Part shown: positions 2,126-41,606 of the stretch, in pieces | Layout: each line of letters starts with the position of its first letter | How positions within the stretch are numbered: the first letter of the stretch is position 1 | Source of the DNA: Deltaproteobacteria bacterium | GTDB lineage: Bacteria; Desulfobacterota; Desulfobulbia; Desulfobulbales; Desulfurivibrionaceae | Reading direction: 5' to 3' | Assembly: GCA_021802645.1 (NCBI GenBank) | Contig: JAJZRO010000019.1 | Span: 1-46,290 of the forward strand | DNA: 46,290 nt | The notes under the pieces: model-generated | Database searches by the model: none | The model's input: the letters and a program-made list of their open reading frames with translations, nothing else | Told to the model about the DNA's origin: nothing | Program-made: the position numbers and the translations under genes

Positions 2126-2213
2126 TGAGCTCAGGTTGTGAGTCGTTGAGCGTATCGGAGTACCCCCCTCCGTCGATAATTTTGTAACCTTCACTTCACC
2201 TTCATGGCACACT

Positions 2214-3275
2214 ATGAGCAATGGCGAAAAATGCAGGTACACCGAGGCCGGCGTTGATATCGACAAAGGCAATGCCTTTGTCGAGCGGATTAAGCCGGTG
2301 GTGGCCGCCACCTTCCGCCCCGGGGTCTTGACCGGCATTGGCGGCTTCGGCGGTCTCTTTGCCTTGGGCGGCGGCAAGTTCAAGGACCCGGTGCTCGTTT
2401 CCTCCACCGACGGCGTGGGCACCAAGCTGATGATCGCCAACCTGTGCCAGAAACACGACACTATCGGCATCGATCTGGTGGCCATGTGCGTCAACGACGT
2501 GGTGGTGTGCGGTGCCCACCCCCTCTTCTTCCTTGATTACTTCGCCACCGGCGGGTTGGACCTGGACGTGGCGACCGACGTGGTCAAGGGGATTGCCGCT
2601 GGCTGTGAGATCAGCAAATGCGCCCTGATCGGCGGCGAGACCGCCGAAATGCCCGGGATGTACAAGCCGGGCGACTATGACCTCGCCGGTTTCGTGGTCG
2701 GCATCTGCGAGCGCGACAAGCTCATCGACGGCTCTGAAATCAAGGTGGGCGACAAGCTCATTGGCTTGGCCTCCAGCGGCCTGCACAGCAACGGTTATTC
2801 TCTGGTGCGCAAGATCTGCTTTGACGAAATGAAGCTTACGGTCAAGACCAGGATCGACGAGTTCGGCTGCACGCTGGGCGAGGAACTGCTGCGGCCGACC
2901 CGCATCTACAGCGAACCCCTGCTCAATCTGATCAAGAATTACAAGGTCAAGGGGCTGGTTCATATTACCGGCGGTGGTTTGATCGACAATATTCCCCGGG
3001 TGCTGCCCAACGGTTGCCGGGCGGTGATTCACAAAAAGAGTTGGGAGGTGTTGCCGATCTTCGAGTTTTTGCGGGAGCACGGCAAGGTCACCCCTCTCGA
3101 GATGTGCCGCACCTTCAACAACGGCATCGGCATGGTGGTGATCGTCGATGCCAAGGAGGCGGGCGACGCTGTGCAGCAGCTGGAAGCCTTGGGCGAAAAA
3201 CCGTATCTTATCGGTGAGATTGCGCCGGTTTCTCCCAAGAAGGAGGAACCGCTGGTCGAGGTGGACTGCGGCTGA
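2214..3275 (+). CDS. purM: phosphoribosylformylglycinamidine cyclo-ligase
   Basis: A 353-residue AIR synthetase. It closes the imidazole ring by the ATP-dependent conversion of FGAM to AIR, the fifth step of purine synthesis. The N-terminal YTEAGVDIDKGN segment and the VSSTDGVGTK phosphate-binding stretch are typical, followed by GIDLVAMCVNDV, GGETAEMPGMY and GLASSGLHSNGYSLVR, the usual PurS/PurM-type ATP-grasp-unrelated fold signatures. The ATG at 2214 gives the same start as E. coli PurM, although no clear Shine-Dalgarno sequence precedes it. It stands alone; neither purN nor other pur genes are adjacent. A strong hairpin terminator follows 33 bases after the stop. Confidence 0.96.
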   Translation: MSNGEKCRYTEAGVDIDKGNAFVERIKPVVAATFRPGVLTGIGGFGGLFALGGGKFKDPVLVSSTDGVGTKLMIANLCQKHDTIGIDLVAMCVNDVVVCGAHPLFFLDYFATGGLDLDVATDVVKGIAAGCEISKCALIGGETAEMPGMYKPGDYDLAGFVVGICERDKLIDGSEIKVGDKLIGLASSGLHSNGYSLVRKICFDEMKLTVKTRIDEFGCTLGEELLRPTRIYSEPLLNLIKNYKVKGLVHITGGGLIDNIPRVLPNGCRAVIHKKSWEVLPIFEFLREHGKVTPLEMCRTFNNGIGMVVIVDAKEAGDAVQQLEALGEKPYLIGEIAPVSPKKEEPLVEVDCG

Positions 3276-3308
3276 GACGCGGCAAGTCGATAGCACACGA
3301 GACAAATT

Positions 3309-3344
3309 AAAAAAGCGGTGTGCCTCTGGCACACCGCTTTTTTT
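3309..3344. terminator. bidirectional intrinsic terminator after purM
   Basis: A perfect 10-bp stem, GCGGTGTGCC (3315-3324) and GGCACACCGC (3328-3337), with a TCT loop, is flanked by an A-run before and a T-run after. It can stop purM from the left and the minus-strand Pro/Gln-rich gene from the right. Confidence 0.92.
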
Positions 3345-6895: not shown

Positions 6896-6924
6896 TTGAC
6901 ATCAGGGGAGGCCGCTGTTATATA
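6896..6924 (+). promoter_or_regulatory. sigma70 promoter of tRNA-Gly
   Basis: A perfect -35 TTGACA (6896-6901) and a -10 TATATA (6919-6924) are spaced by 17 bp. Transcription would start near 6931, about 24 bases before the tRNA. Confidence 0.85.
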
Positions 6925-35814: not shown

Positions 35815-36780
35815 TTATGCGCTATCCACCGGCTTTTGCCGCAGGTTGGACCAAGTGTCCACCAAGCCGAGTATCGCCAGCAGGAGCAGCCCGTAGAGCT
35901 GGATCAGCAGCAGGCCATAAACCATGACCCTGAAGAATCGCGGCATCCGCCAGCGGGCCAAGAGATAGGCGACGATCGCCAGTCCCTGCATGAAGTACAA
36001 AAGCCCCAGCACATAGCCGGCATTGAGGCCGACGGTCACTAGGGGTTCCCGGTTGCTGGCCAGCAGGCCCAGGGCCACGATCACCAGCCAGACGACTGTT
36101 TCCGGCAGCCGCCAGGTCTTGAACTCCGGCCAGCGGATCAAATCCGGCCGGGTTTTCTGAAGCAGCCAGCAGCCTGCCAGCAGGTTTAGCCAAACCGTGG
36201 TGATGAGTATGTTCAGGAGCACCGCTGGCAACGCCCTGGCGAAAAACTGCCGGGTGGTCTCCAGGGCGATGGTCAGCTCCTTCATGGCCTCGATCGGCAA
36301 CTCCGCCCCGCGGTAAAAGGCCAGCGTTTGCCGGAAGCCTTGGTCCAGTCCCTGCTGGATTTCCCGATAGGGATTGACGCCATACCGAAAGCCATACCAG
36401 GCTCCGGCCAGCAACCAGAGGATTCCCAAGCTGGCTGCCGCCTTAAATCCGGTGTAGCCTGGTGGTTCGTTTTTTTCTATCCCGCGTGCCAGCAACAGTC
36501 CGACCGGCACCAGGGTTATGGCAAAGAGCAGGGCAGGGAACGAGCCGAACCGCAGGGTGACGGCTCCTGCCAGGACTAACGCGGCGGCGATTAAGGCTCC
36601 CCCTTCTTTCCAGCCCAGGGTGATCACCTGATACATGACCACCAAAGGGATGATGCCGTGCAGCCCGGCGAGACCCGCACTGGATGCCGGCAACGCCAAG
36701 CTGGCGGCCGTCAATGCCAGGCCCAGCAGAGCGCTGCGCGGGGAAGCCCCCTCGCCGTGCGGTTCCACGGATTTGGTCAA
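35815..36780 (-). CDS. DUF2232 integral membrane protein
   Basis: A 321-residue protein with about eight hydrophobic helices, the DUF2232 family. It commonly stands between rpsR and rplI in deltaproteobacteria, as here. Function unknown; related proteins have been linked to spore or cell-envelope processes in other phyla but that cannot be read here. The predicted start is TTG at 36780, only 6 bases after the rpsR stop, with no ATG close by; the exact start is uncertain. A Pro/Glu-poor cytoplasmic loop includes GIEKNEPPGYTG. Confidence 0.85.
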   Translation of the reverse strand: MTKSVEPHGEGASPRSALLGLALTAASLALPASSAGLAGLHGIIPLVVMYQVITLGWKEGGALIAAALVLAGAVTLRFGSFPALLFAITLVPVGLLLARGIEKNEPPGYTGFKAAASLGILWLLAGAWYGFRYGVNPYREIQQGLDQGFRQTLAFYRGAELPIEAMKELTIALETTRQFFARALPAVLLNILITTVWLNLLAGCWLLQKTRPDLIRWPEFKTWRLPETVVWLVIVALGLLASNREPLVTVGLNAGYVLGLLYFMQGLAIVAYLLARWRMPRFFRVMVYGLLLIQLYGLLLLAILGLVDTWSNLRQKPVDSA

Positions 36781-36786
36781 CGCCCG

Positions 36787-37026
36787 TTAAGGGTGCGGGT
36801 TGCCAGTATAGGGCAGCAACGCGATCTGGCGAGCCCGCTTGATGGCCTCGGTCAGCTGGCGTTGGTGCCTGGCGCAATTGCCGTAGATGCGGCGGGGGAT
36901 GATTTTGCCGCGTTCCGTCAGGTAGTTGCGCAGGGTCCGGACATCCTTATAGTCGATGGTCATCCCCTTGTCGGTGCAGAAACGGCAGACCTTGCGGCGG
37001 CCGAAGGGTTTCTTTTTCTTGATCAT
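36787..37026 (-). CDS. rpsR: 30S ribosomal protein S18
   Basis: A 79-residue S18. [35 protein letters not shown] and [20 protein letters not shown] are the full family signature. It contains CxxC and one more Cys, the zinc-type variant of S18. It follows rpsF after 40 bases and pairs with S6 in the platform of the small subunit. Confidence 0.98.
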
Positions 37027-37066
37027 GGTCGTGGTCCTTGTCGTCGAAGTTGGGCAGCAGGTGGGA

Positions 37067-37408
37067 TTATGCCTCGGCCTCGGTGGATTCCGCCGTGGTT
37101 GCCTCGGCGACCTCCTCTTCGGCGTCGAGCTTGACGGTCAGGTACTTGAGGACCCGATCGTCGATGCGGAGCTGACGCTCCATCTCCGCGACGCCGGCAG
37201 GCGCGCACTCATACGCATAAAAGACGTAGGAGCCCTGTTGTTCCTTCTTGATGACGTAGGCGAGCTTCTTGAGCCCCCACTTGTCGATCGTGGCGACGGT
37301 GCCGCCATGTTCCTTGACGATCCCGGTGAACTTCTCGATGATGCCATTCAGCTCGTCTTCGCTGCCGGCACCGGGACGCACGATGATGATGGTTTCGTAC
37401 CTGCGCAT
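37067..37408 (-). CDS. rpsF: 30S ribosomal protein S6
   Basis: A 113-residue S6. [15 protein letters not shown] and [20 protein letters not shown] are characteristic; the C-terminus is acidic (Glu/Ala/Thr-rich), as in many S6 proteins. AAGGAGG lies 6 bases before the ATG at 37408; a frame extension upstream is excluded. The gene heads the rpsF-rpsR-DUF2232-rplI-dnaB run with its own promoter. Confidence 0.97.
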
Positions 37409-37423
37409 GGTTCCTCCTTGTGG

Positions 37424-37443
37424 GCGTAAGGCCTTCGGCACGC
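37424..37443 (-). promoter_or_regulatory. hairpin in the rpsF leader, possible S6:S18 autoregulatory site
   Basis: In the transcript GCGT (37443-37440) pairs with ACGC (37427-37424), and GCC with GGC around a GAA loop, leaving a CTT bulge. The CCGAAGG core recalls the CCG-containing motif bound by S6:S18 in other bacteria. A second small hairpin, GTCGCC with GGCGAC, lies near 37474-37488. Autoregulation is inferred only. Confidence 0.35.
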
Positions 37444-37499
37444 AGAGCCAAGGGCAAAGAGGGGTTGGTAACGTGTCGCCTTGGGCGACGAAACGACGA

Positions 37500-37528
37500 T
37501 AACTACCACAGCATGGTGGAGCTGTCAA
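37500..37528 (-). promoter_or_regulatory. probable promoter of the rpsF operon
   Basis: On the minus strand TTGACA (37528-37523) is a perfect -35; TAGTTA (37505-37500) follows after 17 bp, a weak -10. The -35 overlaps the mazG stop codon. A transcript from here has a leader of about 85 bases. Confidence 0.5.
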
Positions 37529-38331
37529 ACCTTTTTTCCGCCGCCGGACCGGGGTTTTGTCTCCTCCCAGCGGGCGAGCATGGCCTCGGGGGCGAGTTCG
37601 GGGATGGTCTCGCCGCGGGCAGCAATCTGCGCCTCGAAGTGGGTAAACCGGTCGATGAATTTTTCCGTGGCGGTCTGCAGGGAGGTTTCCGCGTCCAGCC
37701 CCCTTTTGCGGGCAAAGACCACCAAGGCGAAGAACAGATCGCCCAGTTCCTCAGCGATCCGCTGCTGATCGCCCTCAGACTGCGCATGCTGCAATTCTTC
37801 CAGTTCCTCCCGGGTCTTCGCGAGGGCTTGGTTGGCATCCGGCCAGTCGAAGCCGGTGCGGGCCGCGCGGTCTGCCACGCGCTGGGCGCGATGCAGGGCT
37901 GGCAGGCTCTTGGGCACGGCAGCCAGCGCACTCTTGGGCGGCGCGTTGGGGCCCTTTTCCGCGGCCTTGATGGCGTGCCACTGCTGGCGGAGTTCCTGCT
38001 CCGACTTGACGACCTGGTCGCCAAAAACGTGGGGATGACGACGGACCATCTTGGCGCTGATGGTGTCGAGCACCTCGGCCAAGGTGAAGCGGCCCTGTTC
38101 GGCATACAGGTTGTTCAGGAAGATGATCTGGAAGAAGAGATCGCCCAGTTCCTCGCGGACATGGTCGGCGTCATCGTGATTGATGGCCTCCAGCAGTTCA
38201 TGGGTTTCTTCGAGCAGATAGCCTTTGAAGGTCTGCGGCGTCTGCTTTTGGTCCCAGGGGCAGCCATCCGGTGCCCGCAGTCGGGTGATGATCTCGACAA
38301 GGCGAATGAAGTTGGCGGCGGTCTCCTGCAC
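37525..38331 (-). CDS. mazG: nucleoside triphosphate pyrophosphohydrolase
   Basis: A 268-residue MazG with two MazG domains, which cleaves abnormal NTPs to NMP and pyrophosphate. RAPDGCPWDQKQTPQTFKG is the family start, and the metal-binding motif LLEETHELLEAI with REELGDLFFQIIF appears in the first domain; the second has EELGDLFFALVVF. Length resembles E. coli MazG (263). The start is GTG at 38331 with AAGGAG 6 bases before. Its stop overlaps the rpsF promoter. Confidence 0.95.
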   Translation of the reverse strand: MQETAANFIRLVEIITRLRAPDGCPWDQKQTPQTFKGYLLEETHELLEAINHDDADHVREELGDLFFQIIFLNNLYAEQGRFTLAEVLDTISAKMVRRHPHVFGDQVVKSEQELRQQWHAIKAAEKGPNAPPKSALAAVPKSLPALHRAQRVADRAARTGFDWPDANQALAKTREELEELQHAQSEGDQQRIAEELGDLFFALVVFARKRGLDAETSLQTATEKFIDRFTHFEAQIAARGETIPELAPEAMLARWEETKPRSGGGKKV

Positions 38332-38435: not shown

Positions 38436-38464
38436 TTGACCTGTGGCGGCATGATGCCTATAAT
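38436..38464 (+). promoter_or_regulatory. strong sigma70 promoter reading towards the AP2-like gene
   Basis: TTGACC (38436-38441) and a perfect TATAAT (38459-38464) are spaced by exactly 17 bp, the best promoter match of the window. Transcription would start near 38471, about 240 bases upstream of the next gene. Confidence 0.85.
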
Positions 38465-38708
38465 ATATTTGAAGCAAAAATGCCACGGTGTGGGACAAAA
38501 GTGGCACCATCCGTGGTGAAAGCGGAGTAGCAGGCCGGATTGCCACAAAAAAGTTTCAGAGGAGCCCAAAACGGTCGTTGCAAAAGCATATTTCTAGTGT
38601 ACATTGGCGCGACCAGCGTGGGAAATTTTCAAATGTCCGAGGGGGACAATCCGAGGGGGACAAACAGAGAGGCGGCCATGCCGCCGTATCGACCCAACCT
38701 CAGAGAGT
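38465..38708 (+). other. long untranslated leader or small RNA region
   Basis: About 240 bases between a strong promoter and the AP2-like gene. It contains inverted repeats CCACGG/CCGTGG (around 38483-38515), the tandem 14-bp repeat at 38636-38663, and a perfect hairpin GGCGGC-CAT-GCCGCC at 38671-38685 just upstream of the start codon. Short open frames cross it, none with convincing coding features. I could not match it to a riboswitch class by eye. It may be a regulatory leader, a small RNA gene, or the remains of an insertion-sequence end. Confidence 0.45.
38636..38663 (+). repeat. perfect tandem repeat of 14 bp, two copies
   Basis: TCCGAGGGGGACAA occurs twice without a gap (38636-38649 and 38650-38663). 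It stands in the leader of the AP2-like gene. A related AGGGGACATT-like string (reverse strand) is found near 40508. It could be a protein-binding site or replication slippage. Confidence 0.9.
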
Positions 38709-39161
38709 ATGGGTGCAACAATGGCAAAGAAAATTCTCGAAAAACACAAGGACGTCGCTCGAATCGACCAGGAAGACAAGCGCACGCACGGCTGGTACGT
38801 GCGGGTGCGTTTCATGGGCAAGACCCACTCGAAGTTCTTTTCCGACGGCAAATACGGCGGCCGGTATTCGAGCCTGCTGGCGGCATTGGCGTGGCGTGAT
38901 CAGACCGAGGCAAAGATCGGCAAGATCCGCACCGACAAGCATATCGTCACGGTGAGCAATACCAAGACCGGCGTGGTCGGCGTGCGCCTCAACGAGGAGT
39001 TGAACCGCTACGAGGTGAGCTGGGTGAACGACATCGGCCGGCAGGGCAAGACCTCGGTCTCGATCCGCAAACACGGCAAGGAGAAGGCCTTTGAGCTGGC
39101 TTGCCAGATTCGCAAGGAAAAAGAGGCTGCCCGCTTGGGGGTTTCGCCCTCGGCGATCTGA
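38709..39161 (+). CDS. AP2-like double-repeat DNA-binding protein
   Basis: A basic 150-residue protein. Two similar units can be seen: residues about 26-70 (HGWYVRVRFMGKTHSKFFSD, then SLLAALAWRDQ) and 86-140 (TGVVGVRLNEELNRYEVSW, then KTSVSIRKHGKEKAFELACQ). Each has three beta strands with Arg/Lys followed by an amphipathic helix, as in AP2/ERF domains, which bind DNA and occur in bacteria in homing endonucleases and small stand-alone proteins. No nuclease motif is seen. The ATG at 38709 is chosen; an in-frame ATG at 38721 is equally possible, since the ribosome binding site is weak (GAGAG). A strong promoter lies 240 bases upstream. Its targets are unknown; DNA binding is inferred. Confidence 0.7.
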   Translation: MGATMAKKILEKHKDVARIDQEDKRTHGWYVRVRFMGKTHSKFFSDGKYGGRYSSLLAALAWRDQTEAKIGKIRTDKHIVTVSNTKTGVVGVRLNEELNRYEVSWVNDIGRQGKTSVSIRKHGKEKAFELACQIRKEKEAARLGVSPSAI

Positions 39162-39812
39162 TTACGACAAAAAATGAAGCAGTTCCTGGGGCCGGGCGAT
39201 GAGCGCCTTGGCCCCATTTTTTTTGAGTTCCTCGGCGGTACGGAACCCCCACAAGGCTCCCACCGCATGCATGCCCGCCCGGTTGGCGGTGAGCATGTCG
39301 GTATTGGTGTCGCCCAGGTAGAGGAAATCAGCAGGGGTAAGACCCAGTTCGCTGGCGATGGCCAGAGCGCCGGCCGGGTCCGGTTTTTTGATGCCATCCG
39401 GCCGCACCCCGCGCACCACCCGGAAGCGCCACCTGCCGAGCAGGGTGGCCACCACTGTTTTCGTGAAATCGTCAGGCTTGTTGGAGAGGATCACCATGGA
39501 GACCCCGCGGCTGGTGAGGCCGTCGAGCAGTTCGGGGATGCCGGGGTAAGGCCTGGTTTCCTCTGCCCAGCGGCCGGCGTATTCCTGGCGCATGGCGGTC
39601 ACCGTTCGCTGCACCATGGCGTCGTCGGCTTGCCCGGGCGGCAGCACTCGACGGGCCAGGGTTTCCATGCCGTCGCCGACGAAATATCGATAGGCCGCCA
39701 CCGGGTGCTGCGGGAGGCCGAAGCGCCCCAGCACCGTGTTCATGGAGTGGGCCAAATCCGCCAGGCTGTCGAGCAGGGTGCCGTCGAGGTCAAAAAGGAC
39801 GCATCGGTACAT
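39162..39812 (-). CDS. HAD-family phosphatase, phosphoglycolate phosphatase type
   Basis: A 216-residue HAD hydrolase. Motif I VLFDLDGTLLDS gives nucleophile Asp8 and Asp10; motif II is VILSNK; motif III lies around KKPDP; motif IV is YLGDTNTDM. A helical cap domain sits between motifs I and II, as in Gph. The family removes 2-phosphoglycolate formed by DNA repair; substrate specificity remains a guess. Its stop codon abuts that of the AP2-like gene with no gap and no terminator. Confidence 0.88.
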   Translation of the reverse strand: MYRCVLFDLDGTLLDSLADLAHSMNTVLGRFGLPQHPVAAYRYFVGDGMETLARRVLPPGQADDAMVQRTVTAMRQEYAGRWAEETRPYPGIPELLDGLTSRGVSMVILSNKPDDFTKTVVATLLGRWRFRVVRGVRPDGIKKPDPAGALAIASELGLTPADFLYLGDTNTDMLTANRAGMHAVGALWGFRTAEELKKNGAKALIARPQELLHFLS

Positions 39813-39830: not shown

Positions 39831-40352
39831 TCAGGTGTTGTCGTTGAGCAGGTCGATGATCCGCCGGCCAACGCCAAGACGGGCGCGCAGGAGGGAAGGC
39901 TTGGCTGGCTTGGCGAGATAGTCGTCCGCCCCGCCTTCCAAGGCCAGAAGCTGTTCTTCATCGGATTTGCGCGCGCTGAAAATGAGCGCGTAGACATAGG
40001 GCTTGGGGCGTTTGGTGCGCAACCGCTGGCAGACCTGCATGCCGGTCAATCCCGGCAGGTTCCAGTCAAGGATGGCGAGGCGGATGGTCGGGTCGCTTTC
40101 GAGCAGTTGCCAGGCATCGTCGCCGTTCTCCGCTTCCACCGGCTCAAACCCCCATTTTTTGACGAAGTTGTTCAGTCCCTTACGGACCACGGGGTTATCC
40201 TCGGCAAGAAGTACCTTCATGGGCCGCTTGGATTGCCCCTGGGGCGGCGGTGCGGTTTTCGGCTTGGCGGCGGGAGGGGGCTTGGCCGCAGCATCCGGTT
40301 TGGCGGCAGCCTTGGCGGCCGGGGATTTCTGGGTGGGGGCGTCGTCGGCCAT
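39831..40352 (-). CDS. single-domain response regulator with a Pro/Ala/Lys-rich N-terminal tail
   Basis: A 173-residue protein. The first 43 residues are low complexity (Ala, Pro, Lys). A CheY-like receiver domain follows, with the acidic pair Glu51-Asp52, the phospho-acceptor Asp96 in LAILDWNLPG, Ser126 and Lys148 in the YLAKPAKPS turn. No output domain follows the receiver. The start at 40352 has AAGGAAGAGACC before it; an upstream in-frame codon (40379) is less likely. No histidine kinase is nearby. It may act in motility or in protein-protein signalling; the tail may bind nucleic acid or a partner. Confidence 0.88.
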   Translation of the reverse strand: MADDAPTQKSPAAKAAAKPDAAAKPPPAAKPKTAPPPQGQSKRPMKVLLAEDNPVVRKGLNNFVKKWGFEPVEAENGDDAWQLLESDPTIRLAILDWNLPGLTGMQVCQRLRTKRPKPYVYALIFSARKSDEEQLLALEGGADDYLAKPAKPSLLRARLGVGRRIIDLLNDNT

Positions 40353-40612
40353 GGTCTCTTCCTTTTTTCTGGTTGCCAACTGCGGTTACTATAGCGGGAA
40401 GCGACGGACGGAGGCAAGTCAAATTGGGCGGTGATGCGGTATGGATTTTTTCGTCTTTCTGCTTGACGGAACGGCCCAAGAGCACTATTCTTTGCCACAT
40501 TTTTAAAGGGATAATGTCCCCTTAATGACGCTACGGCACAGAGTTGTCCCAATTTGGTGACAGTTCAGTTAGTTCATTCAGGATTTCTAAAATTTTAAGG
40601 GAGGAACGTACT

Positions 40613-41542
40613 ATGTCTGTTTGTGTTATTGGCCATTCCAATCCGGATACCGATTCCATTGCCGCGGCGATTGCTTACGCCCACTATCTGAAGGCCACCG
40701 GCACCGACGCCAAGGCCTGCGCCCAGATCGAGGCCGCCAAGATCAACCCCGAGTCCAAGGTGGTTCTGGCCCGTTACGGCCTCACTGCCCCCGAGACCAT
40801 GATGGACGCCGAGGGCAAGGACGTGGCCCTGGTGGACTTCAGCGACATCGCCCAGGCCCCGGCCAACGTCATGAAGGCCAACCTGGTGGGCGTGGTTGAC
40901 CATCACAAGATCGGCGACATCACCACGGGCTCCCCGATCTTCTTCTACGCCAAGCCGGTAGGCTGCACCTGCACCGTGCTCTTCGAGATGTTCAAGAACA
41001 ACAAGGTGGACCTGCCGAAGAACATCGCCGGCGCCATGCTCTGCGCGATCCTGAGCGACACCGTCAACTTCAAGTCCCCGACCTGCACCGCCGAAGACAA
41101 GGCCGCTGTGAAGGAACTGCTGGCCATCGCCGGCGAGTCCAATCAGGACGCCCTTTTCATGGAGATGCTCAAGGCGAAGTCTTCCGTGGACGGCATCCCC
41201 ATGAAGGACCTGGTCTTCCGCGACTACAAGGACTTCGACATGGGCGGCAAGAAGGTCGGCATCGGCCAGCTGGAACTTGCCACCATCGATCAGGTTGCCG
41301 CCATCCGTGCCGATCTGGTGAAGGCCCTGGAAGACCTCAAGAAGGATGGCCGTCACTCGGTGCTCTTCATGCTCACCGACGTGGTCAAGGAGGGTACCGA
41401 CCTGATCGTGGTCTCCGACGACAACGCCCTCATCGAGAAGGCCTTTGGCGGCAAGATCGCGAATGGCTCCATGTGGGTGAATGGCATGATGAGCCGCAAG
41501 AAGCAGACCGTACCGCCGCTGCAGAAGGCCTTCGGCGCCTAA
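40613..41542 (+). CDS. ppaC: manganese-dependent inorganic pyrophosphatase
   Basis: A 309-residue family II pyrophosphatase of the DHH superfamily, which hydrolyses pyrophosphate with Mn or Co. The metal motif GHSNPDTDS (His8, Asp12, Asp14), the DHH motif in VVDHHKIGD, the SDTVNF segment and the C-terminal SRKKQ active-site motif are all present. No regulatory CBS or DRTGG domains are inserted, so it is the simple form. GGGAGG lies 8 bases before the ATG; a longer frame from TTG at 40544 is rejected. It ends at a strong bidirectional terminator. Confidence 0.97.
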   Translation: MSVCVIGHSNPDTDSIAAAIAYAHYLKATGTDAKACAQIEAAKINPESKVVLARYGLTAPETMMDAEGKDVALVDFSDIAQAPANVMKANLVGVVDHHKIGDITTGSPIFFYAKPVGCTCTVLFEMFKNNKVDLPKNIAGAMLCAILSDTVNFKSPTCTAEDKAAVKELLAIAGESNQDALFMEMLKAKSSVDGIPMKDLVFRDYKDFDMGGKKVGIGQLELATIDQVAAIRADLVKALEDLKKDGRHSVLFMLTDVVKEGTDLIVVSDDNALIEKAFGGKIANGSMWVNGMMSRKKQTVPPLQKAFGA

Positions 41543-41573
41543 GTCGCTTCCGTTTTTTTTCCGTTGTTTTTGC

Positions 41574-41606
41574 AAAAGCCCCGGGCAACTGCCTGGGGCT
41601 TTTTTG
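41574..41606. terminator. bidirectional terminator between ppaC and the selenoprotein gene
   Basis: AAAAGCCCCGGGC (41574-41586) pairs with GCCTGGGGCTTTT (41591-41603), a 13-bp stem with one G-U pair and an AACT loop, flanked by A- and T-runs. It serves both converging genes. Confidence 0.93.

Follow-up and report, generated by a model that had tools for sequence, protein, structure and literature searches.

In the window, by which we mean the whole stretch of 46,290 nucleotides analysed here, a gene at 38721-39161 (+ strand) encodes a protein of 146 amino acids composed of two AP2-like units, and the distribution of its homologues suggests that the gene of this tandem-AP2 protein has become a settled part of the chromosome in many Desulfobulbales, a group of sulfur bacteria. 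We are confident that the protein is domesticated and vertically kept. That it is a DNA-binding regulator rather than an RNA-binding protein is the reading we favour, while its autoregulation is a tentative proposal. The account as a whole, a domesticated tandem-AP2 DNA-binding regulator that probably controls itself, has in our judgement about an even chance of being right. The reading frame is real, and the combination of conservation, a constant neighbour, a strong promoter and a long leader suggests that its product has an important job.

The protein and its predicted fold

Pfam, the predicted structure and the homologues together delimit an N unit at approximately residues 12-66 and a C unit at approximately residues 83-139. 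Because L002, the sole congener, whose protein is 97% identical, has ACG as its codon at 38709 and both genomes continue with GGGTGCAACAATGGCAAAG after that position, agreeing just upstream of 38721, the true start is probably the ATG at 38721 and not 38709. The Pfam AP2 profile (PF00847) matches the C unit at E 2.5e-12 (47.3 bits against a cut-off of 33.3) and is matched by 17 of 17 aligned homologues, including that of the window (E <=1; best 8.3e-14). For the N unit the profile search returned no Pfam AP2 match, and BLASTP of the N half against the C half found no similarity.

From an alignment of 17 sequences AlphaFold2 produces a model (mean pLDDT 78.8, pTM 0.46) in which a linker of low confidence connects two strand-strand-strand-helix units. 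The first unit has strands at residues 12-17, 22-31 and 34-41 and a helix at 48-66, the second has strands at 87-91, 96-102 and 108-114 and a helix at 120-139, and the pLDDT of the blocks is 77-95 except at the termini and in the linker. The N half modelled alone takes the same fold (mean pLDDT 80.7). An AP2 fold, i.e. a three-stranded sheet on one helix, is thereby predicted for each unit, and the two AP2-like units that the earlier note had read in the sequence hold up, the C unit by Pfam and both by AlphaFold2. A sequence search for a solved structure of the tandem-AP2 protein found none. By codon usage the gene ranks 11th of 37 window frames, hand-picked from the list of open reading frames, and lies within the range of the ribosomal-protein genes of this genome; as these are also unremarkable, the measure is uninformative.

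Distribution, constraint and gene neighbourhood

The source contig belongs to a 2.55 Mb genome in which PF00847 occurs once, and some relatives carry several tandem-AP2 copies. Where relatives of the window carry names, these are Desulfurivibrio, Desulfobulbaceae and further deltaproteobacterial assemblies, and we take the order to be Desulfobulbales accordingly. We detected a homologue in 40 of 58 near relatives and in 139 of the 257 genomes of the order Desulfobulbales (85/148 among the high-quality ones), and the matched sites among those listed for the order are 63-100% identical. Four genomes of the order, three from family f11 and one from f5, gave weak matches only (E 1e-13 to 1e-30); among the matches listed, f11 and a few other families have mostly no match or a weak one. 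No homologue was found in 118 of the 257 genomes, some of them incomplete, which means that not every member of the order needs the gene. In a phylum-wide sample, 10 of 395 genomes matched (9/395 by profile search), seven of them from this order with the source genome included; the other three (L050, L051 and L052) are distant, at 31-38% identity.

The sequence is under strong constraint. More than 98% invariance is found at 71 of the 146 positions (88 distinct sequences), and over 90 distinct loci the AP2 proteins have a median identity of 79.8% to that of the window, against 50.3% for the MazG proteins, both measured on the best aligned piece. This set of 90 loci was freed of duplicates, of loci with less than 380 bases upstream (L027) and of the distant L050-L052.

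The divergent neighbour is mazG (37525-38331, - strand; Pfam MazG 2.6e-38), encoding a nucleotide pyrophosphohydrolase, with rpsF, the gene for ribosomal protein S6, next beyond it (37067-37429, - strand; Ribosomal_S6 3.1e-29 for 37070-37429). A divergent mazG stands upstream in 88 of the 90 distinct AP2 loci, the exceptions being L017 (66% identical) and L116, and 14 of 17 named relatives show the order rpsF-mazG-AP2; two of the three named loci without rpsF (L008 and L017) have less flanking sequence, and the flank of the third (L012) is not short. On the other side, a convergent HAD hydrolase gene (39162-39812, - strand; HAD_2 1.8e-30) holds the same place in many, not all, relatives, and a response-regulator receiver gene (39831-40379, - strand; Response_reg 5e-22 for 39834-40364) lies downstream in many. 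A sequence so frozen and a place so constant point to vertical descent under strong selection, which is not what a homing nuclease would show.

Two further observations concern the surroundings. The stretch 35815-38331, which holds mazG and rpsF, also encodes a DUF2232 membrane protein further beyond rpsF. The frames at 40595-41575 and 2202-3332 (both - strand) have a third-position GC of 0.58, against 0.68-0.89 in 35 others, and are possibly recent arrivals or non-genes; that at 40595-41575 has no Pfam match.

Promoter, leader and control regions in relatives

The near-consensus promoter described in the earlier note is present: a sigma-70-like site, P1, occupies 38436-38464 (+ strand), with TTGACC at 38436-38441, a 17-base spacer and TATAAT at 38459-38464. 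It has 11 of 12 consensus bases; no other site in the window (both strands, spacing 16-18) reaches 11/12, and 10 Markov shuffles yielded none. Four sites in the window have at least 10/12, where the shuffles average 1.0 each; of the three besides P1, all at 10/12, two stand just before the two tRNA genes of the window, at 6896-6924 (+ strand) before tRNA-Gly (6955) and at 121-93 (- strand) before tRNA-His (77-1). These provide an internal yardstick, and P1 fits the consensus better than both. In the congener the hexamers (12/12) and the spacing of P1 are identical, with 12 of 17 spacer bases kept, where 64% of aligned intergenic columns agree. Judged by its hexamers, its spacing and this conservation, P1 is a putative sigma-70 promoter. 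A promoter-matrix comparison over the 90 loci found P1 itself nowhere other than in the window and the congener. With an E. coli-like matrix, 14 of the 90 loci, these two included, reach p <=0.05, and we rejected a promoter of P1 strength as an order-wide feature. By this comparison of sequences the strong promoter is a trait of the genus, not a general one.

Given a start at P1, the leader would span 38465-38720 (+ strand). The earlier note had seen in it an unusual, structured leader of 240 bases. The distance is right, with 244 bases from the end of the -10 hexamer to 38709, and with the start probably at 38721 the leader would measure about 250 bases. What is unusual is the strength of the promoter; the leader sequence between P1 and a second candidate promoter, P2, is poorly conserved, the congener keeping 27 of the 100 bases of 38465-38564, with a gap of about 40. 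As for structure, the leader folds slightly better than its shuffles, a weak effect both for 38471-38720 (z -2.06, 5/200 shuffles as good) and for 38613-38740 (z -2.26, 4/200).

The candidate P2 (38568-38605, + strand; block AAAACGGTCGTTGCAAAAG) consists of TTGCAA at 38578-38583, a 16-base spacer and TACATT at 38600-38605, and at 8/12, counted by eye, it is weaker than P1. Its block AAAACGGTYGTTGCAAAAG (38568-38586) occurs exactly and singly in both congeneric genomes, the next best site having 3 mismatches, and the congener keeps 40 of the 55 bases of 38569-38623. As P2 lies nearer the gene, the 240-base leader may not be the sole one. Further downstream, the stretch 38634-38663 (+ strand) has an inverted repeat, TGTCC-GAGGG-GGACA (38634-38648), within a tandem duplication of the 14-base unit TCCGAGGGGGACAA (38636-38649 and 38650-38663). 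The congener has one copy, TATCC-GAGG-GGATA, with one compensated pair between the two sequences compared. As a regulon motif the 14-base repeat was rejected: a degenerate pattern with 1 mismatch hit 3 and 5 sites in the two congeners, where the backward control hit 2 and 3, and it missed the window's own copies, which leaves the search with little weight. Sequence and fold place a hairpin, GGCGGC-CAT-GCCGCC (38671-38685, + strand), before the gene; the congener reads GCGGC-GT-GCCGC at this site, yet its predicted fold pairs the stretch otherwise.

The control regions of relatives carry elements of their own. In family f12, 25 of 30 loci have TTGAC[AT] with CCTGAC or CCTAAC no more than 12 bases further on, and in 23 of the 25 this arrangement lies at a distance of 139-209 bases from the gene; it recurs in 3 of 60 other loci and in none of 50 shuffles of the 30, with the family labels taken from the genome family column and one f12 member, L049 (G037), counted among the others here and in the EM analysis. 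An EM motif for f12 reached a log-likelihood of 406.6, against 88-102 in three shuffles. Within this promoter the exact 17-mer CCTGACCAACTAAGTAG occurs in 6 of the 30 loci. Searched with up to 2 mismatches, eight f12 genomes yielded six sites at <=1 mismatch, every one of them before the tandem-AP2 gene, and two sites at 2 mismatches elsewhere; the backward control yielded four sites. There was no site in G542 and none at the tandem-AP2 gene in G563. The confinement of the motif to this gene at <=1 mismatch argues against a broad regulon that uses it, and is also the observation that makes autoregulation plausible, if indirectly. The f12 element is absent from the window. A single motif common to all families was tried and rejected, since EM, run on 66 mixed loci and on the 51 that are not f12, gave patterns that were rich in A or resembled start codons and that scored above shuffles but had no clear use.

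In g4, a sister genus of the same family, TTGCAA-17-TATA stands at -179 to -190 in 11 of the 12 loci looked at, sub-threshold and not distinct from shuffles by the promoter matrix. L010 has TTGCAA-17-TATACT at -237. For g4 and a neighbouring genus (L005) we predict a two-stem leader that closes just before the ribosome-binding site; the stem is missing in one g4 locus and has no counterpart in the window. Its sequence GGCGCAGGGGGGGCC occurs exactly once in each of 4 g4 genomes and is absent from one f10 genome. In g4 loci such as L038, the run GGCGCAGGGGGGG, also exact once per genome in 4 g4 genomes, pairs with CCTGTGC adjoining the ribosome-binding site. In an alignment leaving aside L026 (no stem), L043 (near twin of L040), L049 (unlike) and L027 (90 bases upstream), the stem pairs at 95.4%, against 26-52% when slid; shuffling the 3' letters gives a mean of 93.8%, and 4/500 reach the observed value. 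Three pairs are changed on both sides, with 14/500 shuffles as high, and the covariation score is reached in 23/500 shuffles. Covariation support for the g4 stem is modest, and its end just before the ribosome-binding site makes post-transcriptional control possible. Far-upstream promoter-like elements thus recur with sequences that differ by lineage, a sign that this gene has lastingly kept a long leader or an ample control region.

DNA or RNA binding, rival explanations and meaning

The AP2 fold is best known from plants and malaria parasites, and two AP2 units usually mean sequence-specific binding, as in the AP2/ERF and ApiAP2 proteins. With these, e.g. the SIP2 tandem (PDB 6sy0), our protein shares two predicted strand3-helix units in tandem, a structural match over both and, for the C unit, a sequence profile match; it differs in being bacterial and without a further domain, in having an N unit below Pfam detection and in its place beside mazG. 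With the whole model, Foldseek ranked Toxoplasma gondii mitoribosomal chains at the top (1.7e-5 and 4.0e-5), and the Plasmodium falciparum SIP2 AP2 tandem on DNA (6sy0) scored 7.8e-5. VIA-align against these chains gave Z 8.2 to 7.1, where a Z of 8 or less can mean merely a common arrangement, and rmsd of 8.0-15.3 over 111-115 residues, the large values being read as the units lying differently relative to each other. For the N half, VIA-align put the same proteins in the lead (Z 7.8-6.0, rmsd 2.8-5.0 over 54-68 residues), with Z not far above that of unrelated rows (<=5.3), and the best Foldseek E was 0.042, none being <=0.001. PMC11652630 describes Toxoplasma mtAP2 proteins that bind rRNA fragment ends within the mitoribosome and voices the idea that AP2 domains began as RNA binders; from this paper we infer that the matched chains 9i05, 9g6k and 9hqv are mtAP2 proteins. 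They are the best structural match to our model, and both sides are lineage-restricted and conserved. The identity is 15-24%, and by that paper's account the Toxoplasma proteins bind rRNA, whereas ours is compared with them by predicted fold.

This structural likeness bears on the question of whether the protein is chiefly RNA-binding, with the ribosome or its own leader as target, like autogenous ribosomal proteins or mtAP2. We consider this improbable. It would fit a conservation above that of the neighbouring MazG, the rpsF-mazG linkage in 14/17 named loci, the g4 stem just before the ribosome-binding site, the hairpins of the window, and best structural matches that are RNA-binding proteins; however, the DNA-binding SIP2 tandem scores nearly as high, leaders vary in sequence from family to family, the stem is absent from one g4 locus, neither neighbourhood nor fold says much about function, and a Z of at most 8 can reflect a common arrangement. 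A dedicated RNA- or ribosome-binding protein beside rpsF, controlled via its own structured leader, seems to us quite improbable; what chance a role on RNA or the ribosome has comes from the Toxoplasma structural relatives, which bind rRNA ends, from the closeness of rpsF and from the hyperconservation. A nucleoid-associated protein, with broad, low-specificity DNA binding and high expression from a stable-RNA-like promoter, is unlikely. The protein is small, lysine- and arginine-rich by eye and hyperconserved, and P1 is nearer the consensus than the two tRNA promoters of the window, but AP2 pairs are usually sequence-specific, the codon usage is neutral and 118/257 genomes of the order have no match.

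Bacterial AP2 domains are known chiefly within mobile HNH nucleases and integrases, and the gene could accordingly encode a selfish or mobile-element protein, part of a homing nuclease or integrase, caught in passing. Indeed, the alignment with the distant L050 spans both units (positions 10-131 of 136), after which L050 has an HNH_2 domain, its AP2 score being 17.4 bits against the Pfam cut-off of 33.3, and PHROG 99, 'HNH endonuclease', weakly matches residues 23-70 of our N unit (E 0.0023). Furthermore, some genomes hold several copies, and two plasmid records match, from Desulfocapsa sulfexigens (66.7% identity) and Methylobacter (35%); the Desulfocapsa copy, L137 2188-2631 (NC_020305.1), sits on a 36.7 kb plasmid with a recombinase gene in the same record. 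Against this, the 146-amino-acid protein has no HNH family at E <=1 (Pfam, NCBIfam) and no catalytic domain (Pfam, NCBIfam, PHROG), its chromosomal site is fixed with mazG as neighbour in 88/90 distinct loci, none of 50,697 phage records matched it, and of the 28 IMG/VR stretches that fit the pattern 0 were confirmed. The gene does not behave like a phage gene, and we give a mobile-element protein only a very slight chance. L051 and L052 are free-standing, L052 adjoining an HNH gene, and L051 is the only one of L050-L052 to pass the Pfam AP2 cut-off; together with the Methylobacter plasmid hypothetical protein they resemble ours in size, two-unit extent and free-standing form (28-35% identity) and differ in belonging to other genomes of the phylum or to another phylum, with other neighbours. 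That the strong promoter drives a small RNA of its own, as the earlier note had suggested, or is a chance match, is very unlikely. The poor conservation between P1 and P2 would suit it, as though the gene had no need of a leader, but we found no terminator-like site on the + strand between P1 and the gene (such sites occur within 260 bases before the gene in 4/90 loci), and Rfam 15 at the gathering score returned for the window two tRNAs only, with no structured leader or riboswitch; with 27/100 bases kept between P1 and P2 besides, a separate small RNA lacks support and was rejected. Chance is opposed by the retention of the P1 hexamers and spacing where aligned columns of the congener are 64% identical and by the failure of any of 10 shuffles to reach 11/12.

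We return to the domesticated DNA-binding regulator. The protein perhaps originated as the portion with which a mobile AP2-HNH nuclease binds DNA, a suggestion drawn from one distant homologue, L050, with its AP2 match below the cut-off (17.4/33.3 bits). In the L050 locus (coordinates 1471-2481) the two-unit region is joined to HNH_2, a possible ancestor type. In our account the tandem-AP2 gene has descended vertically, next to mazG and rpsF and under extreme constraint. Its two units would bind double-stranded DNA, as a regulator or as a small chromosome-binding protein; expression would proceed from P1 and perhaps P2, and the protein may limit its own synthesis by binding its own promoter or leader. 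Its control could extend to mazG, which shares the intergenic region.

The family itself is not new to public annotation, which names one such protein 'AP2 domain-containing protein'. In the open-licence literature, covered by titles and the starts of abstracts, we found no account of this protein's conservation, place or control, which is weak evidence of absence. A free tandem-AP2 protein in about half of the genomes of the order, nearly always with the same neighbour and with half of its residues essentially frozen, points to a core bacterial function of AP2. If it were an RNA-binding bacterial counterpart of mitoribosomal AP2, it would support AP2 domains as original RNA binders, the idea voiced in PMC11652630. 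The protein is small and suited to asking whether the bacterial AP2 fold reads DNA or RNA, a question that bears on the ancestry of the parasite AP2 proteins.
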